Shown piece after piece: positions 1 to 13,978 of a stretch of DNA of 64,000 nt (position 1 is its first letter; the number at the start of each line of letters is the position of its first letter). The position numbers and the translations under genes were made by a program. Below the pieces are notes generated by a model, which worked only from the letters and a program-made list of their open reading frames with translations, was not told the origin of the DNA and searched no databases. This DNA comes from Devosia oryzisoli (GTDB taxonomy: Bacteria > Pseudomonadota > Alphaproteobacteria > Rhizobiales > Devosiaceae): positions 248,001 to 312,000 of the forward strand of contig NZ_JACYFU010000003.1 of the NCBI RefSeq assembly GCF_014837245.1, given 5' to 3'.

Positions 1-453
1 CCAGCCCAACTGGCGGAACAGCACATATTGCGGGATGAGCGTCACCTGATAGGGGAGCATCAGCGTCATCAGCATCAGTGCGAACCAGAACTTGCGGCCC
101 TTGAACTCCAGCCGGGCAAAGGCATAGGCGGCCAGAGAACAGGCCAGCACATTGCCCGCGACCGCCAGGAAGGCGATGATGAAGCTGTTCTTGAAGAACA
201 CCGAGAAGCTGGTGCGCAGTCCATTCCAGCCCCGGAAATAGGCGTCGATGCTCCACTCCGACGGCCAGATGCTCGCCGAGGTGAAGATCTCGGTTTCAGG
301 CCTGAACGATGCCGAGAGCATCCAGAGCAGCGGATAGAGCATCAGGATGGAGGCGGCGAGCAGGGCTACATGGCTCAACACCGAAACCAGGCGCTTGCGC
401 CAGAGCGGGGTTTCACCGGTCACGACGGTCATCTTCGCGGGCGCGTCAGTCAT
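1..453 (-). CDS. Carbohydrate ABC transporter permease (MalG type), partial
   Basis: Inner-membrane permease of a sugar importer, open at the left edge of the window, so only the N-terminal 151 residues are seen. Reading from the ATG at 453 gives a short cytosolic tail, a first membrane segment at about residues 27-47 (LLAASILMLYPLLWMLSASF), a periplasmic stretch with the family-typical FRP..EIF pattern, then further hydrophobic segments. The start overlaps the stop of the MalF-type gene (ATGACTGA at 453-446), so the two permeases are translationally coupled. The family pairs with a MalF subunit, an ATPase and a binding protein; the ATPase is not in the window and is expected beyond position 1 or elsewhere. 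Confidence 0.9.
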   Translation of the reverse strand, partial: MTDAPAKMTVVTGETPLWRKRLVSVLSHVALLAASILMLYPLLWMLSASFRPETEIFTSASIWPSEWSIDAYFRGWNGLRTSFSVFFKNSFIIAFLAVAGNVLACSLAAYAFARLEFKGRKFWFALMLMTLMLPYQVTLIPQYVLFRQLGW

Positions 454-1390
454 CGTAGTGCACCCAATACTTCGAGGTGAGGAAAGAGAAGGCGGTAAAG
501 AACGCCACCAGCGCCAGGAGCACCCAGGCCAGCGCGGATGCGTAACCCATGCGGAAGAAACCGAAGGCCTCCTGATAGAGGTAGAGGGTATAGAACAGGG
601 TGGAGTTGATGGGGTTACCCGTACCGCCCGAGATGATGAAGGCGGGGGTAAAGCTCTTAAAGGCCTCGATGGTCTGGATGATGGCGTTGAAGAAAACGAC
701 CGGCGTCAGAAGCGGGAGCGTGATTTTCCAGAACTGGCGCCACTTGCTGGCACCGTCCAGCGAGGCCGCCTCGTACATGTCCTGCGGGATCTGTCGAAGC
801 CCCGCCAGGAAGATGATCATGGGCGAACCGAACTGCCAGATCGATAGAATGATCAGCGTCCAGAGAGAATAGTTCGGGTTGGAAATCCAGCTTGGACCGA
901 CGATGCCAAAGAGCGCGAGCACCTTGTTGACGAGGCCGTCGCCAGCGAAGATTTGGCGCCAGAGGATGGCGATAGCCACGGACGCACCAAGCAGGCTCGG
1001 CAAGTAGAACAGGGCGCGGTAGAGCGGCAGTCCCTTCATGCCGCGATTGAGCAACAAGGCGACGCCCAGCGCGAACGCCAACTTGAGCGGCACAGAGAAA
1101 ATCACGAAGAACATCGTGACCCGCATCGAAGTGGAGAACTTCGGATCGGCGGTGAACATGCGGACATAGTTGGACGCGCCAACCCAGTCGGGCGACGTCA
1201 GCAGGTCGAAATCGGTGAAGCTCAGATAGAGCGAGGAGACCATCGGCCCGAGCGTCAGACCGAAAAAGCCGATCAGCCAGGGCAGCAGGAACATGTACCC
1301 GGCCCCGTTCTGCTGCCAGAATCGGGAAAAGGCCGATTGCTGCCGCGGCGCGGCGTCGATGCCTGTTGTTGTCTCGTGTGCGACGGCCAT
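446..1390 (-). CDS. Carbohydrate ABC transporter permease (MalF type)
   Basis: A 314-residue inner-membrane subunit that would form the translocation path of a binding-protein-dependent sugar importer together with the MalG-type partner downstream. About six hydrophobic segments are visible. The cytoplasmic EAA loop that docks on the ATPase is clear at residues 207-227 (YEAASLDGASKWRQFWKITL). Length is normal for the family. It lies 234 bases downstream of the binding-protein gene with a GC-rich hairpin between them, and overlaps the next permease by 8 bases. The substrate cannot be read from the sequence; the linked regulon suggests a sugar or sugar derivative. Confidence 0.92.
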   Translation of the reverse strand: MAVAHETTTGIDAAPRQQSAFSRFWQQNGAGYMFLLPWLIGFFGLTLGPMVSSLYLSFTDFDLLTSPDWVGASNYVRMFTADPKFSTSMRVTMFFVIFSVPLKLAFALGVALLLNRGMKGLPLYRALFYLPSLLGASVAIAILWRQIFAGDGLVNKVLALFGIVGPSWISNPNYSLWTLIILSIWQFGSPMIIFLAGLRQIPQDMYEAASLDGASKWRQFWKITLPLLTPVVFFNAIIQTIEAFKSFTPAFIISGGTGNPINSTLFYTLYLYQEAFGFFRMGYASALAWVLLALVAFFTAFSFLTSKYWVHYDD

Positions 1391-1586
1391 GCTTACCCCG
1401 CGCGCTCCAGAGTGGAAACCACTTGCTCAAAAGACGCCGGGCCGACCAGCCGCAAATCCGCCTGCTGCGCGAACGCCAAGCTCTGAGACGGCGCCACAAA
1501 GGCAGTCGGGGCAGGGCCGGAAAGGGGAAACTGGCGACAGGAAGGGGACATGGTCACAACGCGTTTGGGACTATCGGGATGAGAAG

Positions 1587-1616
1587 AGGCCGCGCGCCCG
1601 AGAGAACGCGCGGCCT
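1587..1616 (-). terminator. Hairpin between binding-protein and permease genes
   Basis: Perfect 10-bp stem AGGCCGCGCG (1587-1596) and CGCGCGGCCT (1607-1616) with a 10-base loop, just after the stop of the binding-protein gene on the minus strand. There is no U-run. Such intercistronic hairpins often protect the upstream message or partly terminate, giving more binding protein than permease; that role is inferred here. Confidence 0.5.
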
Positions 1617-1624
1617 CAAAGGGG

Positions 1625-2917
1625 CTAGGAAGCAGCGCGCGAAAGGATCGCGCTCGCGCCTTCCACCAGTTCCTTGCCAGCTTGCTCGGCGGTCTTGGCA
1701 CCAAAGCCGACTTCCTGGCCGAGAGTGCGGATCAGCGAGGAATCCACTTCACCGGCAGCGGCCGGCGGCGGGGGCGGCAGCGGGCCAAGCAGGTCGCCCA
1801 GGTTCGCGACGAAGTTAAGCGCGATCTGGTTCGGGCCATCGAGGGTGGGAGAAACGACGTCGCGGGTGGCCGGCAGACAGGGGATGCCTCGCTCGACGCC
1901 AAGCACCTTGGCCGCTTCCGGGTCGGAGACGAAGAAGTCGACGAAAGACGCCGCAGCTTCCTTGTCGGCCGCGGTGTTGCCGACCGAGAAGAACATCGAC
2001 GGCTTGCGGTAGTGCCCACCGCCAACACCTTCGGCAATACGCGGGTAGCCAACCATGTCGAGCTTGTCCGGCACAAGGCCCTGGAATGCGACGAGCTGGT
2101 TCGAGTTCGAGGGCATGAGGGCAGCCTTGCCGGTCACCAGCATGGTGGTTTCCAGCGGGCCAGTATCGAGCGCCTGGTTGTCCGGCGTGACGCAAACCTT
2201 GGCCTCGCGCAGCTTGCTCCAGAGCTGGTACCACTCCACCGCATCCTGCTCGTCAAAGCCGAGTTTGCCCTCGGCCGTGTAGAGCGCTTTGCCACGCTGG
2301 CGCAGCCAGTTGTCAAGCATGGGCTCGGAGTAGGACCCATCGGCGATGGCCCGCATCCCGCCCCGGATATTGGCGGAGTTGAAGGCCTCGCCGATTTCCA
2401 TCAAATCGTCGTAGGTCCAGGCATTGGTCGGCAGCTCGATACCAGCTTCTTCGAAGGCACCGGTATTGACCAGCGTCGCCACCGAGTTGGCGCCCAGGGA
2501 AATGCCGTAGAGCTTGCCGTCGACCTTGCCGCCTTCGAGCTGGTCTGCATCAAAGCCGGCTTCGGCCAACTTGGCGCCGAGATCATCGATGGGGGCAATC
2601 GCGTTGCGCTTGGCGTATTCGACAATATAGCGATAGTCCATCTGGATGACGTCGGGGGCGTTGCCACCGGCGGTCTGCGTAGCCAGCTTGGGCCAATAGT
2701 CGTTCCAGGCGAGGAACTCGGCCTCGATATCGTTGCCCTTGGCCGCGGTGAACATGTCCGCCACCTTGTAGGTGCGGTCGGCGCGATCCTGGCCACCCCA
2801 GAAGATGAGGCGCAGACTTGAAGCCTGTGCCCATGCCGGGCTAACGCCAGCTGCGCCTGCAGCAAGAAGCGCGGAAGATCCCATCAGGAACTGACGGCGA
2901 TCGAGCTTGATAGTCAT
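1625..2917 (-). CDS. ABC transporter sugar-binding protein, Tat-exported
   Basis: Periplasmic family-1 solute-binding protein of 430 residues that would deliver substrate to the two permeases downstream. The start at 2917 is chosen because GGGAGGAAA lies just upstream and it places a twin-arginine signal at the very N-terminus (DRRQFLMGSSALLAAGAA, then AWA-QA as a likely cleavage site near residue 30); a longer reading from 2950 has no such support. The mature part shows the lobes typical of this fold, including RLIFWGGQDRADR and a WNDYWPKLATQTAGGNAPDV stretch. A proline-rich PLPPPPPAAAGE segment near the C-terminus is a flexible loop. Two operator-like palindromes lie in its upstream region. 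Confidence 0.93.
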   Translation of the reverse strand: MTIKLDRRQFLMGSSALLAAGAAGVSPAWAQASSLRLIFWGGQDRADRTYKVADMFTAAKGNDIEAEFLAWNDYWPKLATQTAGGNAPDVIQMDYRYIVEYAKRNAIAPIDDLGAKLAEAGFDADQLEGGKVDGKLYGISLGANSVATLVNTGAFEEAGIELPTNAWTYDDLMEIGEAFNSANIRGGMRAIADGSYSEPMLDNWLRQRGKALYTAEGKLGFDEQDAVEWYQLWSKLREAKVCVTPDNQALDTGPLETTMLVTGKAALMPSNSNQLVAFQGLVPDKLDMVGYPRIAEGVGGGHYRKPSMFFSVGNTAADKEAAASFVDFFVSDPEAAKVLGVERGIPCLPATRDVVSPTLDGPNQIALNFVANLGDLLGPLPPPPPAAAGEVDSSLIRTLGQEVGFGAKTAEQAGKELVEGASAILSRAAS

Positions 2918-2988
2918 TATTTTCCTCCCAGGAACTGCCCGATGGTGCATCGGGAAAGCTGTGTTGGCAGTGGCCTCCCTGCCACTAA

Positions 2989-3004
2989 GTCACCAACTGG
3001 TTAC
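2989..3004. promoter_or_regulatory. Operator-like palindrome, copy 1 (ABC operon)
   Basis: GTCACCAACTGGTTAC, 6 of 8 positions symmetric, 72 bases upstream of the binding-protein start. It matches three other sites in the window at 3084, 12249 and 13171. The ACCA-NN-TGGT core resembles sites bound by TetR-family RutR (TTGACCANNTGGTCAA), and a TetR gene lies at 13289. Regulator assignment is inference. Confidence 0.55.
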
Positions 3005-3083
3005 AAAGTTATGCGGTCCGGCGATCCTGTCAATCGTCGTTTCAAACACGTTTGCCAGAGGGGCCATCTCCGAACCATCGCAA

Positions 3084-3099
3084 ATAACCAGCCGGTTAC
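3084..3099. promoter_or_regulatory. Operator-like palindrome, copy 2 (ABC operon)
   Basis: ATAACCAGCCGGTTAC, 6 of 8 positions symmetric, 95 bases (nine helical turns) centre to centre from copy 1. The spacing would place both sites on the same DNA face, which fits cooperative binding or looping; this is inference from distance alone. Confidence 0.55.
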
Positions 3100-3229
3100 G
3101 CCATACCACGTCAGCCGCAGACGGGGCAATGCACTTGTATGGAAGATTGATTCCACGGCGGACCGCCCGGCTGCGGCTGCCACAGTGGCGCAAAAGCTGA
3201 CGCTGGAAAACTACGAAACTCCTGCGTTA

Positions 3230-3248
3230 CTATAGATGGCATCTATAG
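3230..3248. promoter_or_regulatory. Perfect inverted repeat at the LysR gene start
   Basis: CTATAGATG-G-CATCTATAG, two perfect 9-bp arms around one base, ending inside the Shine-Dalgarno AGGAGG (3247-3252) of the LysR gene at 3258. It contains the T-N11-A geometry of LysR sites (T3233, A3245), so autorepression is likely. In RNA the arms could also pair and mask the ribosome binding site. Confidence 0.55.
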
Positions 3249-3257
3249 GAGGCCCGA

Positions 3258-4178
3258 ATGGACAAGTTACTGACGCAGTTTCTCGCGGTCGCCGATGCAG
3301 GAACGCTGAGTGGTGCCGCGACGGCGCTCTTCATCACGCAGCCGACACTGACCTTCAACATGCGCAAGCTGGAGCAGACAATCGGTGCGCCGCTGTTCGA
3401 GCGCTCGTCGCGCGGCGTGCGGCTGACCCGCTATGGAGAGACGCTCTACGAAAACGCCCGCCTCATGCAACGACTCTATGACAACACCCTAACCGCGATC
3501 GGCGACCAGCAAAGAGGCATAGACAAGGGCCTCTCCATCGGCACCGGCTATTCTTGGTGGACAATGTTCCTCAAGGACATGGTAATCGCCTATCAGGCGG
3601 AATTTCCTCGTGCTCCTGTTCAGGTCAGTTTGGGCAACCAGCTGCGACTGATGGACCAGTTGCTGTCGGGCGACATCTCGATGTTCCTGGCCCATCAGAT
3701 CGATGCCTTGAGTTCCGCCATAGGCGTCGACTTCGTCCCCCTGACGCGGGTCTACAATGCCTTCTTCGTGCGCGAAGGCCACCCGATCAGCGGCGAGCCG
3801 CGGCATCAGAGCGAGGTAGAAGCATTTCCCATCGTCATCTCCTCACTGGCCGAGAGTCGGCATGAGCGCTTCTTCGACCCCTCCCGCCGGCGTGCGCGCG
3901 TGGAGACGGTCTTCGACCGCGCAACCTATCTGTTCCGCTCCAACTCGCTGGCCGCGTGCATCGATTACACGCTGGCCACGGATGCGGTGCTGGTCCATAC
4001 CCACGTCATGCGTAACGAATTCGAGCGCCGCGGTCTCGTGGAGATCGAACAACTCGATGACCCACGGCGAGCCGTCACCGGGATCTATGTCCTGCAGGAG
4101 CGGCGAGGGGAACCGCGGGTCGAGGAACTGATCGAGCGCATAGCGGCGGCGGCCCACGCTGTGCTACCGCCGCTGTGA
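3258..4178 (+). CDS. LysR-family transcriptional regulator
   Basis: A 306-residue regulator of standard length. Residues 1-60 form the LysR winged helix-turn-helix (FLAVADAGTLSGAATALFIT, then QPTLTFNMRKLEQTIGAPLF), followed by a linker helix and a periplasmic-binding-protein-like effector domain from about residue 90. An AGGAGG ribosome site sits 5 bases before the ATG. It is divergent from the ABC operon and 48 bases ahead of the FAD/Fe-S dehydrogenase, so either or both could be its targets. A perfect inverted repeat over its own start suggests autoregulation. The effector is unknown. Confidence 0.92.
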   Translation: MDKLLTQFLAVADAGTLSGAATALFITQPTLTFNMRKLEQTIGAPLFERSSRGVRLTRYGETLYENARLMQRLYDNTLTAIGDQQRGIDKGLSIGTGYSWWTMFLKDMVIAYQAEFPRAPVQVSLGNQLRLMDQLLSGDISMFLAHQIDALSSAIGVDFVPLTRVYNAFFVREGHPISGEPRHQSEVEAFPIVISSLAESRHERFFDPSRRRARVETVFDRATYLFRSNSLAACIDYTLATDAVLVHTHVMRNEFERRGLVEIEQLDDPRRAVTGIYVLQERRGEPRVEELIERIAAAAHAVLPPL

Positions 4179-4204
4179 ACGAGAACACGCTTCCGCTGCG
4201 CCCG

Positions 4205-4218
4205 ACTAACATGTTAGT
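4205..4218. promoter_or_regulatory. Perfect 14-bp palindrome before the dehydrogenase gene
   Basis: ACTAACATGTTAGT, fully symmetric, 8 bases before the ATG at 4227. It has no T-run and no loop, so an operator is more likely than a terminator for the LysR gene. It does not resemble the TNACCANNTGGTTA sites. The cognate regulator is not evident. Confidence 0.45.
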
Positions 4219-4226
4219 GAAAGTCC

Positions 4227-7145
4227 ATGCAGCACGCCGTCTCCTTCTCGACCCAGCCCCGAGCGGCCACCAGTGACCGGCAAGCTGCCGGCGAGCGTGT
4301 GGCCAAGCGCCTCCGAGGCGCCATATCGGGCGCCGTTCACACTGACCCGTTGATGACCTATGCCTGGAGCGGCGACGCCAGTTCCTATCGGCTGATCCCG
4401 GCGGTCGTCGTGTTCATCAACAGCGAGGACGAGGTTCGCGCTGTGATGCAGGCGGCGCGCGCCGAAAGGCTGCCGCTTACTTTTCGTGCCGCCGGAACGT
4501 CTCTTTCCGGGCAAGCCGTCACCGATGGGGTGCTGGCGGTGCTTGGCGACGGCTGGCGCAAGCTCTCGGTTCATTCCGGCGCCGACCAAGTGACGCTGGG
4601 GCCTGCCGTCATCGTGGCGGAGGCCAACAGGGCGCTAAAGCCCTTCAACCGCAAGATCGGGCCGGATCCCGCCAGCCAGGCCACCTGCAAGATCGGCGGC
4701 GTGGTCAACAACAACTCGTCAGGCATGTGCTGTGGGGTCGCGCAGAACACGTACCACACCATGGCGCGCCTAAGGATCGTGCTGACCGACGGGACGACGC
4801 TGGACTCCGGCGATCCCGCCAGTTGCGAGGGTTTCCGCCGCAGTCACGCTCCGATGCTGGATGCCTTGCACCGGCTGCATCACGACGTCATGGCCGATGA
4901 CGAGCTTGTGGCTCTCATCCGGCACAAGTATCGCATCAAGAATACGGTGGGATATTCGCTTAACGCACTGGTCGATTTTCACGACCCGCTGGACATTCTC
5001 ACCCACCTGATGGTCGGGTCGGAAGGGACGCTCGGCTTCGTTTCCGAAGTCACCTACAACACCGTTCCGGAGCACCCGTTCAAGTCCACCGCTTTAGTGC
5101 CCTTCCCCGACCCGCAGTCGGCCGGCCGCGCCATTATCGAGATGGCGAATGGTGGGGTGCAGGTGACGACTGGCGTCACGGCCGCGGAATATATCGAGCG
5201 GCGCGCCCTGGCGACTGTGGAGCATCTCCCGCCAATGGCCCCGCTCCTGCCCTGGCTCACGGAAAACTCGCCCGCTGTCCTGATCGACGTCACCGCTCCC
5301 GATGCGGCAACGCTCGAGGCGGAGGTGACCAAGGCCGAGGGGTTGCTGCGCCGGCACGGCGCTACGCATGTCGACTTTTCCACCGACGAACACCGCAGCC
5401 ACGCGCTGTGGGACATCCGCAAGGGGTTTTTCGCCTCAGCAGGCGCCGCACGTCCTAAAGGCAGCATCATGCTGACCGAAGATGTTGCGGCGCCGATCGA
5501 GAGGCTGGCTGAATTCGTCGTCGACTTGCGCGCCATGCTGGACGATCACGGCTATGCCGACGCCGTGATCTTCGGCCACGCCCTCGCGGGCAATCTCCAC
5601 TTTCAGATGGGCGACGATTTCTCCCACCCGGATTCCGCTGCCAAGTTTGACGCATTCTCCAGGGCCCTGTCAGACCTTGTCTCGGTCCGATACGGGGGCT
5701 CCCTCAAGGCTGAACACGGCACTGGCCGAGCCATTGCGCCCTTCGTCGAGACCGAGTGGGGCCGCAAGGCCTACGAGATCATGCATCGGATCAAGGCGAT
5801 CTTCGATCCGGAGCGCCTGCTCAACCCCGACGTTCTCCTCAATGAGGACAAAAGCGTTCATATCCAAAATCTAAAGCTGATGCCGCTGGCCGACGAGTTG
5901 GTCGACCTTTGCATAGAGTGCGGGTTTTGCGAGCCGGCCTGTCCGAGCCACCACATGACCCTTACGCCGCGCCAGCGCATCGCCGTGACGCGTGAGCGAG
6001 CCAGGCTCGAGCAGACGGGGGAGGACCCGGTGCTTCTCGCGCGGTTGAATGCAGACTTCCAGTATGCAGGCCTCGACACATGCGCGGCCTGCAATCTGTG
6101 CTCGCTTCGGTGCCCCGTCGGGATCGAGACGGGAACCATGATCATGGGCGAGCGCGCCAGACGGCGCAGCGGCATGGCAAATGCCATAGCACAGTTCGCC
6201 GCAGATCATCGACATGGCATCGAAACGGCGATGCGCGGCGGCCTTGCCGTTGCCGATGCGGCGCGGACCCTCGTGCCTCCTCCAGTAGTTGAAGCGGTCA
6301 CGGAACATGCCCGCCGGCTGACAGGCAAGCATGTGCCGCGGATCGCCCGTACGCTGCACCGTGGCCCGGGTGCGCCCAAGGCCCTGGAAAATCGGCAGGA
6401 CCCGCGCCGGACTGGGTTTCCCGTGCCGATAACACAGGCGGGCCGGCCCTCAGTCGTCTATTTTTCTGCCTGCCCCAGCCGCATGTTCGGGGCACCGGCC
6501 ACGGAGCAGGCGCTGCTGCCAACCCCGGAGGCAATGGTCACGCTTCTTGAACGGGCAGGGTTCGATGTCATCGTGCCCGACCACCTCACTGGCCAATGCT
6601 GCGGCCAGCCCTTCCAGTCAAAGGGTTTCCCTGAACAGGCCATCGAGGTGGGGCGCTCGCTCAACAAGACATTGTCGGAGACTTCGGACGCCGGTCGGCT
6701 GCCGGTCGTGACCGATGCTTCGACCTGCGCCAAGCACCTTCGGGCGTTTCCGGGTGATGCGACGGTCGCCGATTCGGCAGAGTTCCTGCTCGCACATGTG
6801 CTCCCGCGTCTTGTGGTAACCAACCGCTTGCCGGTCGTCGCCGTGCATCACAACTGTTCAGCACAGCGCCTTGCAGAGCAGCCGACGACGGAGGCCCTTG
6901 CTGCCGCCTGTGCCGAGCGCGTGGCTGTCCTATCTTCGGTAACCTGCTGCGGTTATGCCGGCGACAAAGGGCTGTTTGTGCCCGAGCTCAATGCCCACGC
7001 TACACGCCGGGTGAAAGACGACATTCCGGAGGGTTGCACCTTGGGTGTGTCGACGGTATCGACCTGCGCCAGCGGCCTTAGCGAACACGCCGGCATTCCC
7101 TTTGTCAGCCTTCCGAGCCTTCTCGAATGGGCCAGCCGCCCCTGA
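4227..7145 (+). CDS. FAD/Fe-S D-2-hydroxyacid dehydrogenase (YdiJ/D-lactate DH type)
   Basis: A 972-residue fusion that oxidises a D-2-hydroxyacid (D-lactate or D-2-hydroxyglutarate in known relatives) and passes electrons through Fe-S clusters to the quinone pool. Order of domains: PCMH-type FAD binding (about 45-270, with FRAAGTSLSGQ and KIGGVVNNNSSGM), FAD-oxidase C-terminal domain to about 540, a 4Fe-4S region (CIECGFCEPACP near 561, CAACNLCSLRCP near 618), and two CCG-type cysteine motifs (CCGQPF near 790, CCGYAG near 907). All key cysteines are present. Length and layout match the YdiJ family. It follows a LysR gene by 48 bases; a palindrome lies just before its start. The true substrate is not readable. 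Confidence 0.88.
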   Translation: MQHAVSFSTQPRAATSDRQAAGERVAKRLRGAISGAVHTDPLMTYAWSGDASSYRLIPAVVVFINSEDEVRAVMQAARAERLPLTFRAAGTSLSGQAVTDGVLAVLGDGWRKLSVHSGADQVTLGPAVIVAEANRALKPFNRKIGPDPASQATCKIGGVVNNNSSGMCCGVAQNTYHTMARLRIVLTDGTTLDSGDPASCEGFRRSHAPMLDALHRLHHDVMADDELVALIRHKYRIKNTVGYSLNALVDFHDPLDILTHLMVGSEGTLGFVSEVTYNTVPEHPFKSTALVPFPDPQSAGRAIIEMANGGVQVTTGVTAAEYIERRALATVEHLPPMAPLLPWLTENSPAVLIDVTAPDAATLEAEVTKAEGLLRRHGATHVDFSTDEHRSHALWDIRKGFFASAGAARPKGSIMLTEDVAAPIERLAEFVVDLRAMLDDHGYADAVIFGHALAGNLHFQMGDDFSHPDSAAKFDAFSRALSDLVSVRYGGSLKAEHGTGRAIAPFVETEWGRKAYEIMHRIKAIFDPERLLNPDVLLNEDKSVHIQNLKLMPLADELVDLCIECGFCEPACPSHHMTLTPRQRIAVTRERARLEQTGEDPVLLARLNADFQYAGLDTCAACNLCSLRCPVGIETGTMIMGERARRRSGMANAIAQFAADHRHGIETAMRGGLAVADAARTLVPPPVVEAVTEHARRLTGKHVPRIARTLHRGPGAPKALENRQDPRRTGFPVPITQAGRPSVVYFSACPSRMFGAPATEQALLPTPEAMVTLLERAGFDVIVPDHLTGQCCGQPFQSKGFPEQAIEVGRSLNKTLSETSDAGRLPVVTDASTCAKHLRAFPGDATVADSAEFLLAHVLPRLVVTNRLPVVAVHHNCSAQRLAEQPTTEALAAACAERVAVLSSVTCCGYAGDKGLFVPELNAHATRRVKDDIPEGCTLGVSTVSTCASGLSEHAGIPFVSLPSLLEWASRP

Positions 7146-7213
7146 GCTGCCCAAGCTTGCCAAGGTGAGCCGGGGCGTATAGTCGCGGCCGCAGGTCGGC
7201 GGGGAAAACGACG

Positions 7214-8395
7214 ATGCAGACAATCACCATCGAAGGCCTTGGCCGCAAAGGCGAAGGCGTTGCGCATGTCGATGGGCAAGCCGTCTTCGTTCCCCTTGCC
7301 TTGCCGGGCGAGCAGGTATCTCTGGGCGAAGGTGTTGGCGATACGTGCGTGGTGGACCCATCACCTGATCGCGTGACGCCGCTCTGCCCCTATTTCGGCC
7401 AGTGTGGTGGCTGCCAGTTGCAGCACATGGGGCCGAACATCTACCGACGGTTCAAGACCGACCTCGTTGAAAGGCCGCTGCAGCAGGTCGGCATTGACGC
7501 AAGAGTGGAGCGGTTCATTGACGCCAGTGACTCAGGCCGGCGCCGCGCAACCCTCCATGCCCGCAACAATATGGCCGGCTATATGCGCGCCCGAAGCCAT
7601 GACCTGCTCGATATCGGTCGCTGTCCCATCCTGGTGCCGGCACTGGCCCAGGCGCCTGAGATCGCCCGCGCCATCGGCACGGAAGTCGGCGCCTGCGACG
7701 CCAGCTTCACGGCCAGCGATACCGGTATCGATGTGGAATTGCGAAACATCCAAAAAGGAGCGCGGCCGGATCGGCTTGTCCCGCTCGCGAACCGGTTCGG
7801 CCTAGCGCGGCTCTCCTATGGCCGCGAGATGCTGCTGCTCCGCCAGCAGCCCCGGGTGCGTATGGGCAAGGCCGAAGTGAACCTGCCCATGGGCAGCTTT
7901 CTTCAAGCCACAGCAGAAGCAGAAGAGGCGCTAGCGCGCTACGTACTCGAGAGTGTGGGCAAGGCCAGAAGTGTGGCCGACCTTTTCTGTGGCGTCGGGC
8001 CCTTCGCTCTGCGCTTGGCCGAGCGCGCCAAGGTCTATGCCGCCGACGCTGACAAGCCCGCTATCGCGGCTCTGGACGACGCCGTGCGCCACACGAAAGG
8101 ATTGAAGGCTGTGACGGCGCAGGCGCGCGACCTGTTCCGAGACCCGTTGACCCGGTTCGAACTGGGGTACGACTGCGTCGTGCTCGACCCGCCGCGCGCC
8201 GGCGCGGCCGCGCAGGTCAAGGAGATCGCGGCCTCCAAAGTGGGCCACGTCGTGATGATCGCCTGTGACCCCGGCACCTTCGCGCGAGATGCTGCGAGCC
8301 TTGTTCAGGCAGGGTTCATGCTGGAAGGCCTAGTGGCTGTGGATCAGTTCGCGTGGTCGGCGCACATCGAAGTTGCCGCCACGTTTCGCCGCTGA
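7214..8395 (+). CDS. SAM-dependent RNA m5U methyltransferase (TrmA/RlmCD family)
   Basis: A 393-residue class I methyltransferase predicted to make 5-methyluridine in tRNA or 23S rRNA. An N-terminal TRAM-like region (about 1-50) is followed by a cysteine cluster CPYFGQCGGCQ near residue 57 that would hold a 4Fe-4S centre. The SAM-binding motif VADLFCGVGPFALRLA lies near residue 255, DPPRAGA near 318, and the catalytic cysteine in IACDPGTFARD near 350. Which uridine it modifies cannot be decided. Length is near the lower end for the family, as is common in alphaproteobacteria. No operon with its neighbours is evident. Confidence 0.88.
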   Translation: MQTITIEGLGRKGEGVAHVDGQAVFVPLALPGEQVSLGEGVGDTCVVDPSPDRVTPLCPYFGQCGGCQLQHMGPNIYRRFKTDLVERPLQQVGIDARVERFIDASDSGRRRATLHARNNMAGYMRARSHDLLDIGRCPILVPALAQAPEIARAIGTEVGACDASFTASDTGIDVELRNIQKGARPDRLVPLANRFGLARLSYGREMLLLRQQPRVRMGKAEVNLPMGSFLQATAEAEEALARYVLESVGKARSVADLFCGVGPFALRLAERAKVYAADADKPAIAALDDAVRHTKGLKAVTAQARDLFRDPLTRFELGYDCVVLDPPRAGAAAQVKEIAASKVGHVVMIACDPGTFARDAASLVQAGFMLEGLVAVDQFAWSAHIEVAATFRR

Positions 8396-8520
8396 TTGGC
8401 CTGATCACGTTTGTTCCGGGCCTGCAACTGACCGCATTGCGCCACGTTTTGAGGTCATACCAACGAACCCAAAGATCGCACGGCCCCTATGCCGGGCGGA
8501 ACCTTTCGCGGAGAATAATC

Positions 8521-8904
8521 ATGTTCAAGGCCTTTGCAGCCACAACCCTCGCCCTGGCCGCTTTTGCGGCACCAGCCTTTGCCCAGTCGGCTGATCCCGA
8601 TGGCGTCTGGAAGGACAAGTGGGGCACCACGTTCACTTTCCAGACCTGCGGGGACGGCACACAGCTTTGCGGCACGCTCAACGACATCCAGGGTGATTCC
8701 CGGACCCCCGAAAACCTCAAATATGTCGACCAGCAGGTCGTTAAGGCCGAGCAGACAGCTCCAGGCAAGTGGGAAGGGAGTATCGCGCTCAACGGCGAAA
8801 ACGCCAAGGCGATCGTTGAACAGACCGGCCCGGACACCATCAAGATCACCGGCTGCAAGGCCGCGATCCTGTGCTCCAGCATCCAGTATGAGCGCGTTTC
8901 GTAA
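8521..8904 (+). CDS. DUF2147 family secreted protein
   Basis: A 127-residue exported protein. The ATG at 8521 is preceded by GGAG and opens with a Sec signal peptide (FAATTLALAAFAAPAFA, cleavage near residue 22). The mature part (DPDGVWKDKWGTTFTF, then LCGTLND) has the pattern of DUF2147, a small periplasmic beta-rich family of unknown function. The frame is open upstream to 8353 but that extension has no ribosome site. It is followed by a strong terminator. Confidence 0.85.
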   Translation: MFKAFAATTLALAAFAAPAFAQSADPDGVWKDKWGTTFTFQTCGDGTQLCGTLNDIQGDSRTPENLKYVDQQVVKAEQTAPGKWEGSIALNGENAKAIVEQTGPDTIKITGCKAAILCSSIQYERVS

Positions 8905-8922
8905 ATCAAGGTCCAGACGACG

Positions 8923-8950
8923 AAAGCCCCGGTCTATCCGGGGCTTTTTT
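8923..8950 (+). terminator. Rho-independent terminator after the DUF2147 gene
   Basis: Stem AAAGCCCCGG (8923-8932) and CCGGGGCTTT (8938-8947) with a 5-base loop and a run of six T on the plus strand. It also ends the opposite minus-strand gene, whose stop is at 8954, since an A-run flanks the stem on the left. Confidence 0.88.
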
Positions 8951-8953
8951 GTG

Positions 8954-9778
8954 TCAGCAGACCGCCGCTACCCGCTCCTTGATCACGGCCAGAACTTCGT
9001 CGCCCGGACGCTTCCACCAATTATCCTGGGAGAAGATTTCGACTTCCTGCGGCCCAAAAAAACCAGCGTTCTCGATCATCTCGCGAATGGCAGGGAGGTC
9101 AATGACACCGTCCCCCATCATGCCCCGATCGAGCAACATGTCCTTTGTCGGCACCAGCCAATCGCAGATATGGTGGGCGAAAATCCGCTTCATCCGGCCG
9201 GCACGCGCGATGGCCTTGGCCAGATTGGGGTCCCACCAGACGTGGTACACGTCGATGGCGACACCGACGGTCTCGCCCAGATCTTCGCAAATATCGAGCG
9301 CCTGATCGATGGTGTTCACGCAGGCCCGGTCGGCTGCGTACATCGGGTGGAGCGGTTCGATCGCAATTTTCACCCCCGAAGCTTTCGCATGAGGCAGCAT
9401 GGCCGCTATCCCGTCGCTGACCATCTGCCGGGCGGCCGGCAAGTCTTTTGAAGATCCTGGCAATCCGCCGACGACCAAAACAAGGCAATCGGCATTGAGC
9501 GCGGCGGCTTCGTCTATGGCGTGGAGATTGTCGTCGATCTGCTTCTGGCGCCCCTCACTGGTTTCGGCCGGAAACATGCCGCCCCGGCAGACACCTGTCA
9601 CCTGCAGCCTGTTGTCCCGCACGATCCGCGCGGCTTCATCAAGACCTATGGCAGCGATCTGGTCCCGCCACGGCGAAATGGCGGTAATGCCGGCGCGCAG
9701 ACACCCATCCACCGCTTCGGCAAAACCCCATTGCTGGCGTGTGGTCGCAAGATTGAGCGAGATCATTCGTTCGGTCAT
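8954..9778 (-). CDS. Sugar phosphate isomerase/epimerase family TIM barrel
   Basis: A 274-residue xylose-isomerase-like TIM barrel. The family isomerises, epimerises or eliminates on sugars using a bound divalent metal; candidate ligands are E141 (IEPLHP), D176 and H179 (AIDVYHVWWDPN), H202/H203 and E247 (EVEIFS). The start overlaps the stop of the DUF993 gene by 4 bases (ATGA), so the two are translationally coupled and very likely act in one pathway with the Gfo/Idh/MocA oxidoreductase upstream. Some relatives act after a 3-oxidase on keto-glycosides, a possible role here. The exact reaction is unknown. Confidence 0.88.
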   Translation of the reverse strand: MTERMISLNLATTRQQWGFAEAVDGCLRAGITAISPWRDQIAAIGLDEAARIVRDNRLQVTGVCRGGMFPAETSEGRQKQIDDNLHAIDEAAALNADCLVLVVGGLPGSSKDLPAARQMVSDGIAAMLPHAKASGVKIAIEPLHPMYAADRACVNTIDQALDICEDLGETVGVAIDVYHVWWDPNLAKAIARAGRMKRIFAHHICDWLVPTKDMLLDRGMMGDGVIDLPAIREMIENAGFFGPQEVEIFSQDNWWKRPGDEVLAVIKERVAAVC

Positions 9779-10944
9779 GCCGGCACTCCATAGACCTGCA
9801 AGACGGCCTTCATGCGGGACGTGGCCAGTTCCGGATCGGCGAGGACGCGGGCCTTGTCGGCGAGGCGGAAGAGTTCGGCGAGGTGCTGAATCGAGCGGGT
9901 CGACTGCTGCCCACCGATCATCTGGAAGTGGTCCTGGAGGCCATTGAGATAGGCGAGGAACACGACGCCAGTTTTGTAGAAGCGCGTTGGCGCTGCAAAG
10001 ATGTGGCGGCTGAGCGGTACGGTGGGCTCGAGGATGTCGAAGAACGTAGTGGTATTGCCGCGCCCAAGCGCGGCGAGGCCCGCTGACGCAGCCGGGGCGA
10101 TGGCATCGAATATGCCGAGCAGAGCGTGGGAATATCCCTGCTCATCCCCCGCGATGAGCTCGGCGTAATTGAAATCGTCGCCGGTATACATCTTTACGTT
10201 GACCGGCAGACTGCGGCGCATCTTGATCTCCTTTTCTGCCGAAAGCAGGGAAATCTTGATGCCGTCCACCTTCTCGGCATGGGCGGCGATGACATCAAGG
10301 CAGACATCCATGGCCGCGTCATGGTCGATGCTGCCCCAATAGCCTTGCAGGGCCGGATCGAACATTTCGCCCAGCCAGTGCATGATGACCGGCTGCTTTA
10401 CCTGGCTGAGGATATGGCCATAGACGCGGGCATAGTCATCGGGTGATTTTGCCGAGGCAGCGAGAGCGCGGCTCGCCATCAGGATGACACGGCCGCCTTC
10501 GCCTTCGACGAAGCCGACTTGCTCGTCATAGGCGCGGATGATGGCGTCGATCGTGACGTCCGGCCCGGGCGCGAGGTGGTCGGTGCCGGCGCCATAGGCG
10601 ATAAGACTATCGTCACGAGTCCGCGCTTCGGCCTGGGAGCGGCGGATCAATTCCTGCGCTTCCGGCCACCCCAGGCCCATGCCGCGCTGGGCGGTATCCA
10701 TGGCTTCGGCGACGCCGAGCCCAAGGTCCCAGAGGCGGTGGCGGAATTTGAGTGTCGTGTCCCAATCGATCGCCGGGGTCAGCCAGGGATCGTTGGCGGC
10801 AAGCGGGTCGGCGACCACATGGGCCGCGGCGAACGCGATGCGGGGGAAGTCGGTGGCGCGATACTTGACGAAGGGAATGGGATCGCCGGTCAGCGCGTAG
10901 GGGCTGATGGAGCGATCGGGATTGGGCAAGTTGATGGTGGGCAT
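9775..10944 (-). CDS. DUF993, dihydrodipicolinate-synthase-like protein
   Basis: A 389-residue protein of the DUF993 group, distantly related to class I aldolases of the DapA superfamily. The start at 10944 is chosen for AGAGGA upstream; the longer reading to 11001 runs into a palindromic repeat. A GIK motif (HAEKVDGIKISLL, K230) is a candidate Schiff-base lysine, as in DapA-type lyases, but this is inference. It is coupled by a 4-base overlap to the downstream isomerase and sits 122 bases after the oxidoreductase. A lyase/aldolase step in sugar breakdown is the simplest role. No member is assigned a reaction that I can name. Confidence 0.8.
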   Translation of the reverse strand: MPTINLPNPDRSISPYALTGDPIPFVKYRATDFPRIAFAAAHVVADPLAANDPWLTPAIDWDTTLKFRHRLWDLGLGVAEAMDTAQRGMGLGWPEAQELIRRSQAEARTRDDSLIAYGAGTDHLAPGPDVTIDAIIRAYDEQVGFVEGEGGRVILMASRALAASAKSPDDYARVYGHILSQVKQPVIMHWLGEMFDPALQGYWGSIDHDAAMDVCLDVIAAHAEKVDGIKISLLSAEKEIKMRRSLPVNVKMYTGDDFNYAELIAGDEQGYSHALLGIFDAIAPAASAGLAALGRGNTTTFFDILEPTVPLSRHIFAAPTRFYKTGVVFLAYLNGLQDHFQMIGGQQSTRSIQHLAELFRLADKARVLADPELATSRMKAVLQVYGVPA

Positions 10945-10975
10945 GGGCTTTTCCTCTCGCCGGAAGCGGCGGAAG

Positions 10976-11051
10976 CCCTCATGGTGAGCCTGTCGAACCA
11001 TAAGGGCGTTGCGCGCCGGACCTCGTCCCTCGACGGCTCAGGATGAGGTCC
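10976..11051. repeat. Tandem palindromic repeat (REP-like)
   Basis: Two hairpins in a row: CCCTCATGGT (10976-10985) with ACCATAAGGG (10997-11006), and GGACCTCGTCC (11018-11028) with GGATGAGGTCC (11041-11051). The GTGAGCCTGTCGA and TCGACGGCTCA loops are inverted copies of one motif, so this is a head-to-head REP doublet. It lies between two genes of one operon and may stabilise the message. Confidence 0.75.
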
Positions 11052-11066
11052 TTTTGATAGATCGGC

Positions 11067-12218
11067 TCAAAACTCGAGTTTCGGAACGTCCAGCCAGCGG
11101 CGTTCGGCCCAGCTTTTGAGACCCAGTTCGGCGAGTTGCACACCCTTGGCGCCGGCTTCCAGACCGTAATTCCATGGTGCGTCTTCGGCGACGTGGCGAA
11201 GGAACATCTCCCACTGCACCTTGAAGCCGTTGTCGGCGGGCCAGTTGTCCGGCACCTCTTCCCAGTCGTCGAAGAAGTTCATGGTCTGCGGCTGGTCGGG
11301 GTTCCATACCGGCTTGGGTGTGTTGACCCGGTGCTGGGTGAAGCACTTGTGGAGCCCTGCCACGGCCGAGCCGTGCGTACCATCGACATGGAAGGTAACA
11401 AGGTCGTCCCGCCGCACGCGCGTCGTCCAGCTCGAATTGATCTGGGCGATGACGCCGCCCTCGAGTTCGAAGGTGGCATAGGCCGCATCGTCCGTATCGG
11501 CCTTGAAGCGGTTGCCCTGTTCATCGACGCGATAGGGGATGTGCGTGGCGCCCAGGCATGACACTGCCTGCACTTCGCCGAACAGGTTGTCGAGCACGTA
11601 ACGCCAGTGGCAGAGCATGTCGAGAATGATGCCGCCGCCATCGTTCTTCCGGTAGTTCCAGGAGGGGCGCTGGGACTTCTGCCAGTCGCCCTCGAAGACC
11701 CAGTAGCCGAACTCACCGCGGACCGAGAGGATGTCACCAAAAAAACCGCTGTCGCGCAGCATCTTGATCTTCATCAGGCCGGGCAGGAACAGCTTGTCCT
11801 GAACCACGCCATGCTTGAGGCCGGATGCACGTGCTGTCTTGGCGAGATTCACCGCCACGTCGAGATCATCGGAAGTGGGCTTTTCACAATAGACGTTCTT
11901 GCCCGCCGCCAGCGCTTTCTCAAGCAGGCTTGCCCGCATCAGTGTGGTGCCGGCATCGAAGAATATCGTGTCGTCGGGATTGGCCAGCGCCTCGTCGAGG
12001 TCATGGCTCCAGCGGGCGATGTTGTGCTTTTTGGCCAGCGTTTCGATCTTGTCGCGGTTGCGCCCGACGATGATTGGGTCGACCTGGAGGCGATCACCAT
12101 TCTTGAGAGCAATGCCACCCTGGTCGCGGATCGCCAGGATCGAGCGCACCAGATGTTGATTGTAGCCCATGCGCCCGGTCACGCCATGCATGATGATGCC
12201 GATCCGTCGTTCCGCCAT
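11067..12218 (-). CDS. Gfo/Idh/MocA family oxidoreductase
   Basis: A 383-residue NAD(P)-dependent dehydrogenase. The Rossmann start is RIGIIMHGVTGRMGYN (residues 5-20); the EKP catalytic-lysine motif is at 112-114 (YCEKPTSDD); the C-terminal alpha/beta domain follows with PSWNYRKNDGGGIILDMLCHW, a conserved active-site region. It is the first gene of a minus-strand set with DUF993 and the TIM-barrel isomerase. An operator-like palindrome lies 31 bases before its start. Members oxidise sugars, inositols or glycosides at ring carbons. Substrate here is unknown. Confidence 0.9.
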   Translation of the reverse strand: MAERRIGIIMHGVTGRMGYNQHLVRSILAIRDQGGIALKNGDRLQVDPIIVGRNRDKIETLAKKHNIARWSHDLDEALANPDDTIFFDAGTTLMRASLLEKALAAGKNVYCEKPTSDDLDVAVNLAKTARASGLKHGVVQDKLFLPGLMKIKMLRDSGFFGDILSVRGEFGYWVFEGDWQKSQRPSWNYRKNDGGGIILDMLCHWRYVLDNLFGEVQAVSCLGATHIPYRVDEQGNRFKADTDDAAYATFELEGGVIAQINSSWTTRVRRDDLVTFHVDGTHGSAVAGLHKCFTQHRVNTPKPVWNPDQPQTMNFFDDWEEVPDNWPADNGFKVQWEMFLRHVAEDAPWNYGLEAGAKGVQLAELGLKSWAERRWLDVPKLEF

Positions 12219-12248: not shown

Positions 12249-12264
12249 GTAACTGATTGGTTAC
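12249..12264. promoter_or_regulatory. Operator-like palindrome, copy 3 (oxidoreductase operon)
   Basis: GTAACTGATTGGTTAC, 6 of 8 positions symmetric, 31 bases upstream of the oxidoreductase start. The right arm TTGGTTAC matches the other three copies closely, which ties this operon to the ABC importer and to the TetR/exporter pair. Confidence 0.55.
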
Positions 12265-12313: not shown

Positions 12314-13060
12314 TTACACGCCCAGCAGCAGCTTCACCCCGACAACGCCGAGAAAGATCAGGATCATGCGATCAAACGCTTCTCGACTGAGGCGGGCGGC
12401 AAGGCGCTGACCCAGGGGCATGAAGATCATCAAGGGGATGAGTGCAAGAAACCCTTCGACCATGATGGGAACCGTCATGACTCCCGCGATGGTCAGGAAA
12501 GCGAATTGGGTGATGGCAAAGAGGAGAAACATGGCCGAAATGGCAAAGACGAGCGCTCCTCGTCCAAGTGACATGGCATGGATGAAGGTGACACCGATTG
12601 GCGACGATACGCCTGTGGCTCCCTGCAAGGCACCAGCCCCGAACCCGGCCAGAGGGGCGAAGAGCCGCGCCGTCGCCGGACCAATCGTGCGATGTGGCGT
12701 AGCCAGCCGGAGTCCAACGTATGCCATCAGAAGTATCCCGAGGCAGACAAGAAGGGCACGCTCCGGCACATTTGTGAGGGCCCAGGTCCCAACCAGAACA
12801 CCGGCCACGCCACCCACCAGCAGAACCGGCAAAAAGCTCAGCCGCTGGTCTCGATAATGGTCTCGAAAGTTCCAGACCTGAAAGATGTTGGAGTAGAGCA
12901 TGGGCACCGTCATCAGCGCCACGGCGTGCTGCAATTCGACAAAGGTGGTCAGCACGGGTAGGGCGACCAGAGGCAGGCCCATGCCCGTAGCGCCTTTGGC
13001 GATCGCGCCGAGACCCAGCCCGAGGGTCATGATGGCGAGACGCCCGATATCGAAGTCCAT
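12314..13060 (-). CDS. TauE/SafE family membrane exporter
   Basis: A 248-residue integral membrane protein with about eight hydrophobic segments and the two glycine-rich family repeats (GAIAKGATGMGLP near residue 18, GAGALQGATGVSSP near 145). Known members export sulfite, sulfoacetate or other organosulfur anions; for most, the substrate is untested. GAGGGAAT precedes the ATG at 13060; upstream extension to 13135 has no such signal. It faces away from the TetR gene, and a TNACCANNTGGTTA-type site lies between them. It may export a by-product of the linked pathway. Confidence 0.88.
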   Translation of the reverse strand: MDFDIGRLAIMTLGLGLGAIAKGATGMGLPLVALPVLTTFVELQHAVALMTVPMLYSNIFQVWNFRDHYRDQRLSFLPVLLVGGVAGVLVGTWALTNVPERALLVCLGILLMAYVGLRLATPHRTIGPATARLFAPLAGFGAGALQGATGVSSPIGVTFIHAMSLGRGALVFAISAMFLLFAITQFAFLTIAGVMTVPIMVEGFLALIPLMIFMPLGQRLAARLSREAFDRMILIFLGVVGVKLLLGV

Positions 13061-13170
13061 ATTCCCTCGGCAAGTGCCCTTACCGGTTTCGCCCCGGCTC
13101 GGCAGGGACCCTAGCATTGATACACCTGTGCGCAAGCGGGGGGTTACCGCGACCCTCTGAGCATGCGCGC

Positions 13171-13288: not shown

Positions 13289-13978
13289 GTGTCCGATCCC
13301 TCTTCAGCCGCACTCGCGGCAAAACCGACTTCGAAAGCTGATGCGCCCAAGCGGACGCGCAATTCGGCCAAGACCAAGGCATCCATCCTGGCGGCAGCAC
13401 GGGTGGAGTTCGCCGACCGGGGCTTTGAGGGGGCGCGGGTGGATGCCATTGCCGAACGGGCGGGCGCCAACAAACGGCTGCTGTACCACTATTTCGGCAA
13501 CAAGGAGGACCTCTACCGGGCCGTGCTCCTGGACGCTTATCAGGAGATTCGTCGGGGCGAGCTTGCGCTGAGCCTTGATCAATACGATCCGGCGCAGGCG
13601 ATGGATCGGCTAGTGCGCTTCACTTTCCGGCACTTCCTTGCCAACCCGTGGTTCCCGCGGCTGCTGGGCACGGAGAACATCGAGAATGCCCGGTTCTTGA
13701 AGACATTGCCCAACATCGAGGCGCTCCACTCACCTCTGGTGGGTCAGATTGCGGCCATCATCGAGCGCGGCAACAGGGCCGGCATCTTTCGTCGCGATGT
13801 GGATCCGGTGCAGCTCTACATCTCGGTCGCGGCGCTAGGCTTCTTCTACGTTTCCAACACTGCCACGCTATCGGTGATCTTCAAGCGTGACCTTGCCAGC
13901 GTCGCGATGGTGCACGAACGCGAAGCGCATGCCGTGCAGATGGTACTCGATTATCTGAAGACCAAGCCCGTGGGATGA
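13289..13978 (+). CDS. TetR-family transcriptional regulator
   Basis: A 229-residue regulator starting at GTG (no early in-frame ATG exists). The TetR helix-turn-helix spans about residues 25-75 (ILAAARVEFADRGFEGARVD, then RLLYHYFGNKEDLY). The C-terminal ligand domain has LLGTENIENARFLKTLPNI. The RLLYHYF.NKEDLY helix is close to that of RutR-type members, which bind TTGACCANNTGGTCAA; the four local palindromes share the ACCA-NN-TGGT core. It probably represses itself, the exporter, the oxidoreductase set and the ABC importer. Inducer unknown. Confidence 0.9.
   Translation: MSDPSSAALAAKPTSKADAPKRTRNSAKTKASILAAARVEFADRGFEGARVDAIAERAGANKRLLYHYFGNKEDLYRAVLLDAYQEIRRGELALSLDQYDPAQAMDRLVRFTFRHFLANPWFPRLLGTENIENARFLKTLPNIEALHSPLVGQIAAIIERGNRAGIFRRDVDPVQLYISVAALGFFYVSNTATLSVIFKRDLASVAMVHEREAHAVQMVLDYLKTKPVG

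Follow-up and report, generated by a model that had tools for sequence, protein, structure and literature searches.

The 64,000-nucleotide stretch of Devosia oryzisoli analysed here (contig NZ_JACYFU010000003.1, positions 248,001 to 312,000, called the window below) contains three minus-strand genes encoding a Gfo/Idh/MocA oxidoreductase, a protein of the family DUF993 and a PF01261 TIM barrel (the trio, Table 1). A sequence-only reading of this DNA had described them as a functional set in which two genes overlap by 4 bases. The open reading frames (ORFs), at 8954-9778, 9775-11001 and 11067-12218, confirm this layout, with the ATGA at 9775-9778 shared by the TIM barrel and DUF993 genes, and the family assignments of that reading agree with Pfam. 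The DUF993 protein scored 622 bits against PF06187 (gathering score 24), covering positions 1-382 of the 382 in the profile, the TIM barrel reached 137 bits with PF01261, and the oxidoreductase belongs to its family by PF01408 (26.4 bits, cut-off 24), PF02894 and PF22725. All three proteins have solved relatives without assigned function (3oqb, 4dnh and 3ju2, respectively).

The long DUF993 ORF begins at an upstream ATG at 11001 and has 408 residues, the lysine of its GIK motif being K249. Its first 19 codons overlap a 21-base dispersed repeat (10977-10997) that lies in the gap before DUF993 and is found in six places in the genome. Since, in addition, many alignments of DUF993 relatives begin at residues 20-23 of the long ORF and the ATG at 10944 has a GAGAGGA resembling a ribosome-binding site before it, the gene probably starts at 10944, the repeat having probably created a spurious N-terminal extension. 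With this start the GIK lysine is K230, the number already used in the sequence-only reading.

Conservation and spread of the trio

Of 299 genomes sampled from the phylum, 24 contain DUF993, as against none of 14 control genomes, and a scan of named genomes gave at least 80 DUF993 loci. The window is nearest to Devosia, the first eight matches all being Devosia contigs with a DUF993 that is 85-89% identical. Genes were called in 109 sequences, and DUF993 was anchored in 107 of these (loci are cited by L and genomes by G numbers). The Gfo cluster was the gene directly before DUF993 in 88 of these 107 loci and the TIM cluster followed one to six genes after it in 87, so that the arrangement is not due to chance, even if the loci are not all independent (L001 repeats the window and some short loci come from the same genome). 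With larger loci, plasmid records included, a Gfo gene within 3 kb and a TIM gene within 7 kb were both present in 77 of 105. The gene order recurs across Alpha-, Beta- and Gammaproteobacteria and Gemmatimonadota, which supports the idea of a functional set. In the DUF993 tree (FastTree, midpoint root, read without branch supports) the loci of the Gfo-DUF993-TIM type make up one part, which reaches Marinobacterium, Burkholderiales and Gemmatirosa.

An oxidoreductase gene labelled Gfo, SDR or GMC was located no more than 3 kb from DUF993 in 92 of 105 loci. Further evidence revealed one in eight of the other 13 (L101, L106, L136, L148, L149, L151, L152 and L153): in L101 a Gfo gene was detected by blastp although absent from its own gene calls, and L149, L151, L152 and L153 have a gene of identical length (338 residues) in the same place. 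Two more (L036 and L074) are cut at the contig end, and in L058, L140 and L150 neither labels nor further evidence gave an oxidoreductase within 3 kb. Where this Gfo enzyme is absent, another oxidoreductase is thus usually nearby. By eye, L058 has a tartrate/isopropylmalate-type dehydrogenase-like protein (8419-9492) directly before DUF993, in the place of Gfo.

The oxidoreductase (E 6e-183 with 3oqb) shows the K-D-H pattern, with E112-K113-P114, D200 and H204 conserved in at least 97% of 88 relatives; we take K113, D200 and H204 to be catalytic. The TIM barrel, whose solved relatives include 3qc0 (E 6e-133) and 3ju2 (SMc04130, E 7e-133), has a four-position pattern of E141, D176, H203 and E247, presumably metal ligands, conserved in at least 97% of 86 relatives. 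A second, ketose-epimerase-like PF01261 protein is found besides that of the trio in 17 loci.

A palindrome shared by the trio and a sugar transporter

A palindrome stands before the trio and again beside the genes of a CUT1 sugar ABC transporter (Table 1). Its pattern TAACNNNNNNGTTA matched the window twice, against 0.04 matches expected, and none of 100 shuffles had two. The form TAACYNNNNRGTTA was found in three places in the whole 3.68-Mb genome, and a control pattern read backwards in 10. At least one site was present in 45 of the 78 Gfo-type loci longer than 12 kb (window included). All 75 sites found in 1.58 Mb of loci were located at most 350 bases before, or at most 60 bases into, a called gene start. 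The genes adjoining a site included the Gfo gene in 31 loci and in 19 the gene of the CUT1 binding protein, and other sites were at TetR, Bug (TTT receptor), NitT permease, dihydrodipicolinate synthase (DHDPS)-type and second TIM genes, with a few at unlabelled genes.

We searched 17 genomes by pattern. In five of them the sites were all at this locus (all but one in the genome of the window, G000): two of three in G000, three of three in G016, two of two in G316 and one of one in both G317 and G320, the placement in the last three genomes being established by matching positions to the contig ranges of the loci. The other 12 had at least one site elsewhere, with up to 15 sites in total (G319). 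The third site of G000 (G000:C1:584151-584164) lies beside genes that by eye resemble nusG and ribosomal-protein genes, and was treated as probably due to chance.

The cluster of the TetR-family protein encoded at 13289-13978 was found within eight genes of DUF993 in 58 loci. This protein is a natural candidate for the regulator, and its co-occurrence with the palindrome suggests that it may bind it. Since the palindrome is shared and recurs at such genes, the trio, the transporter, two further oxidoreductases and the TetR regulator probably form one regulon. In the own genome of the window, left of its edge (G000:C7, about 244344-247510), two more Gfo-type oxidoreductases and an ATPase continue the ABC cluster, an arrangement shared by Devosia loci L030, L031 and L034. 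A homologue of the TauE/SafE permease occupies the same place in two Devosia loci, L032 and L033. Scanning for promoters and terminators gave a result equal to that of shuffles, and a PADLOC search for anti-phage defence gave no match.

Some published data touch the Sinorhizobium meliloti counterparts. The genes SMc04132, SMc04133, SMc04135, SMc04138 and SMc04139 are listed near one another in a PhaR study, in a table where all five carry negative values (PMC12542648); the support from this table is weak, since other genes there are also negative. Another paper names SMc04134 as a transcription factor (PMC11387232).

Table 1. Trio, palindromes and neighbouring genes in the window
Feature	Positions	Strand	Basis
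Gfo/Idh/MocA oxidoreductase, first trio gene; probable NAD(P)-dependent dehydrogenase of a polyhydroxylated substrate	11067..12218	-	Pfam, 3oqb, conserved residues
DUF993, DapA-fold protein with lysine K230 in strand 6; ORF reaches 11001, preferred start 10944	9775..10944	-	PF06187, 4dnh, model, hhalign
PF01261 xylose-isomerase-like TIM barrel, probable metal-dependent isomerase or epimerase	8954..9778	-	Pfam, 3ju2/3qc0/1i60, conserved residues
Palindrome TAACCAATCAGTTA (minus strand), proposed TetR operator	12250..12263		Starts 45 bases before Gfo gene; pattern counts
Second palindrome, between ABC substrate-binding gene and LysR gene	3085..3098		Pattern search of window and loci
TetR-family regulator, proposed palindrome binder	13289..13978	+	Pfam TetR_N and TetR_C_29
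TauE/SafE-family permease directly upstream of Gfo gene; possible pathway transporter	12314..13135	-	PF01925, 90 bits
Substrate-binding protein of CUT1 sugar ABC transporter	1625..2950	-	Solved relatives
CUT1 permease 1	446..1390	-	83% to permease cluster representative
CUT1 permease 2, cut by window edge	1..453	-	Gene calls in window and own genome
LysR-family regulator beside transporter	3258..4178	+	Pfam; same neighbour in Devosia L030, L031, L034

Several other genes accompany the trio. Between it and the transporter, positions 4227-7145 of the window encode a FAD-linked oxidase of 972 residues with Fe-S domains (GlcD / D-2-hydroxyglutarate dehydrogenase-like), a relative of which (81% identical) is found downstream of the trio in Devosia L032. 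A divergent enolase-superfamily protein of about 470 residues (MR_MLE_C 32.6 bits) travels with the trio in L042 (11172-12593) and 36 other loci; none of its solved relatives was better than E 0.3. A PF00701-type protein of about 355 residues was found near the trio in L064 (7735-8808), with relatives in five other loci, and the palindrome precedes this gene in four loci.

Fold and active site of DUF993

An AlphaFold2 model of DUF993 made from 20 sequences (mean pLDDT 87) has its strands in TIM-barrel order and places K230 within strand 226-232, the sixth of the barrel. Its closest structure is 4dnh from S. meliloti, a member of the same family deposited as hypothetical protein SMc04132 (E 8e-194, 74-75% identity, Z 55). 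The best structural matches after it are dihydrodipicolinate synthases (Foldseek E 9e-9), and the best match to the DapA fold (VIA Z 28.8, rmsd 2.3 over 289 aligned residues) places DUF993 in that fold. Comparing 103 DUF993 sequences with 27 DapA-family proteins from the genomes, hhalign gave E 6e-6 and a probability of 85 in a one-to-one comparison; an earlier full-length run of the two profiles had given E 3.5e-6 and a probability of 74, and six other profiles reached E 0.015 to 0.58 with the DUF993 profile. Predicted structure and profile match thus bear out the DapA-like character that had been assigned to DUF993 from the letters alone.

In the profile alignment K230 (K249 of the long ORF) falls on the DapA lysine, H189 (H208) on the DapA tyrosine and the DTAQR motif on the DapA GTTGE. 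The lysine, the histidine and the residues of M-D-T-x-Q-R were identical in all 104 aligned DUF993 sequences, the variable position being A in 96, S in seven and G in one. More than 100 residues were invariant in the 20-sequence sample, some of them at the ends of barrel strands. The sequence-only reading had suggested a possible Schiff-base lysine at K230 and would have been contradicted by a model with no lysine in the barrel centre; the strand 6 position and the invariance stand in its favour, and formation of the Schiff base itself remains a prediction from sequence.

Lysine, tyrosine and GTTGE all have established roles in DapA, GTTGE holding the carboxylate of the substrate. The GTTGE motif and the strand-5 tyrosine of the 2-keto-acid enzymes are absent from DUF993, with a DTAQR-like motif and a histidine in 104 of 104 sequences, and therefore a 2-keto-acid substrate is unlikely. 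We suggest that the capacity for a Schiff base was kept in DUF993 and the carboxylate pocket lost. As compared with the DapA / N-acetylneuraminate lyase superfamily (PF00701), DUF993 has the same (beta/alpha)8 barrel with the lysine position kept; it differs in the two replacements, in about 90 additional residues (389 against roughly 290-300 in DapA chains) and in lacking a match to PF00701 at E 0.01. As far as fold and lysine tell, DUF993 works like a DapA enzyme, although its PF00701 score and its motifs keep it from being classed with them.

Proposed route, alternatives and known systems

From the observed gene set, its conservation, the fold, the lysine position and the palindrome we infer a route, its order of steps included, in which the trio would be the enzymatic core of a regulon for the uptake and breakdown of a small polyhydroxylated compound, be it a sugar, a polyol or a sugar acid. 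A hydroxyl would first be oxidised to a ketone by the Gfo/Idh/MocA enzyme, K230 of DUF993 would form a Schiff base with this ketone, and DUF993 would cleave the adjoining C-C bond by a retro-aldol reaction, with His189 in place of the DapA tyrosine. The metal-dependent TIM barrel would isomerise or epimerise the substrate or one of the fragments, and a TetR repressor acting on TAACYNNNNRGTTA sites would control core and transporter. We regard the broader claim, a catabolic core with a DUF993 of the Schiff-base type, as very probable; for the retro-aldol role within an oxidoreductase-DUF993-TIM route we consider the chances evenly balanced.

Several observations weigh against this proposal. The same lysine serves dehydratases and synthases in other DapA-fold enzymes, and thus the retro-aldol step does not follow from it. 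The profile match of DUF993 to DapA is moderate, so the relationship is carried by the fold match, and a cluster of six DHDPS-type sequences that matches DapA at E 2e-16 fails to match DUF993 (E 0.18), which makes DUF993 a remote DapA relative. No palindrome was found in 33 of the 78 Gfo-type loci longer than 12 kb, including all 11 named Bradyrhizobium loci and nearly all those of Burkholderiales, and in most of the 17 genomes the total number of sites was equal to or below that of the backwards control, so that the evidence lies in the placement of the palindrome and not in its number. Finally, at least four transporter types (CUT1, TTT, NitT/TauT and TRAP) are found near the same core, and therefore the substrate cannot be read from the transporter. 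We rejected such a reading also because the binding proteins point in different ways: that of the window is closest to YesO 5z6b (E 1e-56) and 4r6k (E 2e-56), followed by 2uvg (E 2e-24), that of L148 is related to sugar and glucose binders (2b3b, E 8e-40), and a NitT protein is weakly related to pyrimidine-precursor binders.

The main rival to retro-aldol cleavage would be an elimination role, since oxidoreductases and isomerase-type proteins of the same classes operate in the levoglucosan and AtOGE pathways. DUF993 would then be a Schiff-base dehydratase or hydratase in an operon akin to the oxidation-elimination-hydration-reduction pathways for glycosides (levoglucosan Lgd, AtOGE, DgpABC): Gfo would make a 3-keto-glycoside, the TIM barrel and DUF993 would eliminate and hydrate, and a second Gfo enzyme would reduce. 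The enzyme classes fit, with Gfo, PF01261 and further Gfo genes together with a sugar ABC transporter, and DgpA is among the solved relatives of the neighbouring oxidoreductase GFOb (E 5e-25). The published operons are of like make-up as far as the available parts of the papers tell, that of Agrobacterium having two oxidoreductases and two sugar phosphate isomerases (PMC10628242) and that of Bacillus smithii lgdA, lgdB1, lgdB2 and lgdC with ABC transporter genes (PMC7676230), but those parts describe no DapA-fold enzyme. In most TTT and NitT loci, moreover, the core is not accompanied by GFOb and GFOc, and the levoglucosan dehydrogenase model gave 54.6 bits against a cut-off of 650, outside that family. 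We consider this alternative possible, though on the whole unlikely.

Inositol enzymes are the nearest relatives with an assignment, scyllo-inositol dehydrogenase 5ya8 for the oxidoreductase (E 3e-13) and IolI 1i60 for the TIM barrel (E 6e-7), and this invites a cyclitol route in which Gfo would make an inosose, the TIM barrel would move the ketone like IolI and DUF993 would open the ring by an intramolecular retro-aldol reaction. IolG and IolO are also the best NCBIfam models, but with 60.6 and 33 bits they are far below the cut-offs of 355 and 300, outside inositol membership, and neither the SDR and GMC oxidoreductases nor the glucose-binder-related binding protein of one sister cluster points to inositols; we find such a route distinctly improbable. 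Equally little credence is given to DUF993 as an ordinary 2-keto-acid aldolase or dehydratase like its DapA relatives, acting for example on a 2-keto-3-deoxy sugar acid. The altered motif (DTAQR, DTSQR or DTGQR) and the histidine, both in all 104 sequences, and the missing PF00701 match stand against what the DapA fold, the lysine and the enolase-superfamily gene of 37 loci would suggest. That DUF993 cleaves no bond at all, and either isomerises or has a regulatory or structural role alongside the oxidoreductase and the TIM barrel, appears hardly credible: to our knowledge no reaction has been assigned to any DUF993 member, but the invariant residues, some at strand ends, speak for catalysis, and in the 20-kb stretches of L144-L155 DUF993 stands without a TIM-labelled gene and is therefore not bound to that partner.

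DUF993 also stands in sister clusters. Those of S. meliloti pSymA, Sagittula, Paracoccus kondratievae and Octadecabacter combine DUF993 and a TIM gene with an SDR, a CoA transferase, an aldo/keto reductase and an aldehyde dehydrogenase. Acyl-CoA dehydrogenase and enoyl-CoA hydratase are present in the first three clusters and not in the Octadecabacter stretch, and a glycerate kinase in all except that of Sagittula. This DUF993, TIM and SDR combination (L142 at 1-10768, L138, L164 and L166) represents another gene set, carried by rhizobial and rhodobacterial plasmids, on which no paper was found in the open-licence literature. In the lineage of L144-L147 and L154, DUF993 is accompanied by an SDR, two GMC-type genes and a sugar ABC transporter, and in L148-L153, L155 and L106 by LacI, a CoA transferase, an enoyl-CoA hydratase, an aldehyde dehydrogenase and mostly a Gfo-type gene. 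In Paracoccus yeei and Qingshengfaniella the Gfo-DUF993-TIM order is followed by an annotated glycerate kinase, at a distance of 1 and 4 kb, respectively.

Glycerate kinases, the classes of which have been described (PMC2063504, as far as available), lie no more than about 6 kb from DUF993 in Rhodococcus, Arthrobacter, Marinobacterium, two Paracoccus, Qingshengfaniella, Octadecabacter, S. meliloti pSymA and one further lineage, and are of two kinds. With phmmer they were detected in 8 of 106 loci, the MOFRL type in L142-L146 and the other kind in L136, L137 and L052; the two kinds do not match each other at E 1e-15. Four of six further plasmid records have an annotated one. This is not a random sample, the plasmid records having been picked as annotated and diverse, L142 and L143 being the same S. 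meliloti region and L144-L146 one lineage. Directly after DUF993 on the Arthrobacter plasmid, where the record annotates only short hypothetical proteins, an ORF (L137:11063-12232) shows similarity to the glycerate kinase of Rhodococcus L136 (E 7e-49).

The kinases in several lineages are a hint of a three-carbon (C3) product. DUF993 could be an aldolase for unphosphorylated keto-sugars or keto-sugar acids without the DapA carboxylate pocket, splitting a C6 compound into two C3 compounds; the TIM barrel would interconvert the C3 product, and a reductase or aldehyde dehydrogenase with glycerate kinase would finish the route. On paper, a 5-keto-aldonate would give dihydroxyacetone and tartronate semialdehyde. 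If true, this would be a phosphate-free counterpart of fructose-bisphosphate aldolase and triose-phosphate isomerase. We advance this tentatively and judge it rather unlikely. The searched stretch of 98 of the 106 loci has no such glycerate kinase, and the MOFRL copy of the window genome lies about 175 kb from DUF993. Presence of a glycerate kinase in the genome was rejected as evidence: MOFRL occurs about once per genome regardless of DUF993 (26 genes in 24 of 24 DUF993 genomes, and also in 19 of 20 genomes without it), and therefore only adjacency is informative. PF02595 was found in none of the 24 DUF993 genomes. In favour of the C3 version, dihydroxyacetone kinase (Dak1) is absent from nine of these genomes, that of the window included, and genes like 6-phosphogluconate dehydrogenase, of the tartronate-semialdehyde-reductase type, were present in 5 of 106 loci (L091, L092, L096, L101 and L107), with two weak further matches; their best NCBIfam models, which scored below the cut-offs, were L-threonate dehydrogenase with 153 bits and tartronate semialdehyde reductase with 145 bits. 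A threonate pathway in L107-type loci was rejected, one gene being an SDR and another amidohydrolase-like by eye.

The statement of the sequence-only reading that no DUF993 reaction was known agrees with the open-licence literature, in which we found no published function for the family, and so none unrelated to sugars, and no paper naming DUF993, PF06187 or IPR009334. A 'dihydrodipicolinate synthase family protein' appears in an S. meliloti pSymB variant group, not further identified in the available part of the source (PMC12904279). Overall, the interpretation given in that earlier reading is partly supported. The present analysis adds the shared palindrome, by which the trio probably becomes part of a wider regulon, together with the changes in the DapA pocket and the sister clusters. 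For a family with a structure released in 2012, the proposed regulon supplies transporters and partner enzymes, a site for a regulator and an active site open to testing, and its context lets the substrate be sought by induction and binding assays and not by guesswork. If the retro-aldol proposal is true, it would add an aldolase with a rebuilt DapA pocket, useful in synthesis, and would explain a gene set of many plant- and soil-associated bacteria.

Among known systems, LgdA-C of B. smithii, the AtOGE operon and DgpABC share with this locus the Gfo-type oxidoreductases and the sugar-phosphate-isomerase-type proteins, and in B. smithii also sugar ABC genes; they differ in that DUF993 was not found in the available descriptions of them. 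The non-phosphorylative Entner-Doudoroff and glycerate routes are alike in combining a DapA-fold protein with, in some lineages, a glycerate kinase and an aldehyde dehydrogenase nearby. As compared with these routes, DUF993 has its DapA fold without the 2-keto-acid binding motif and is preceded by an oxidoreductase gene.

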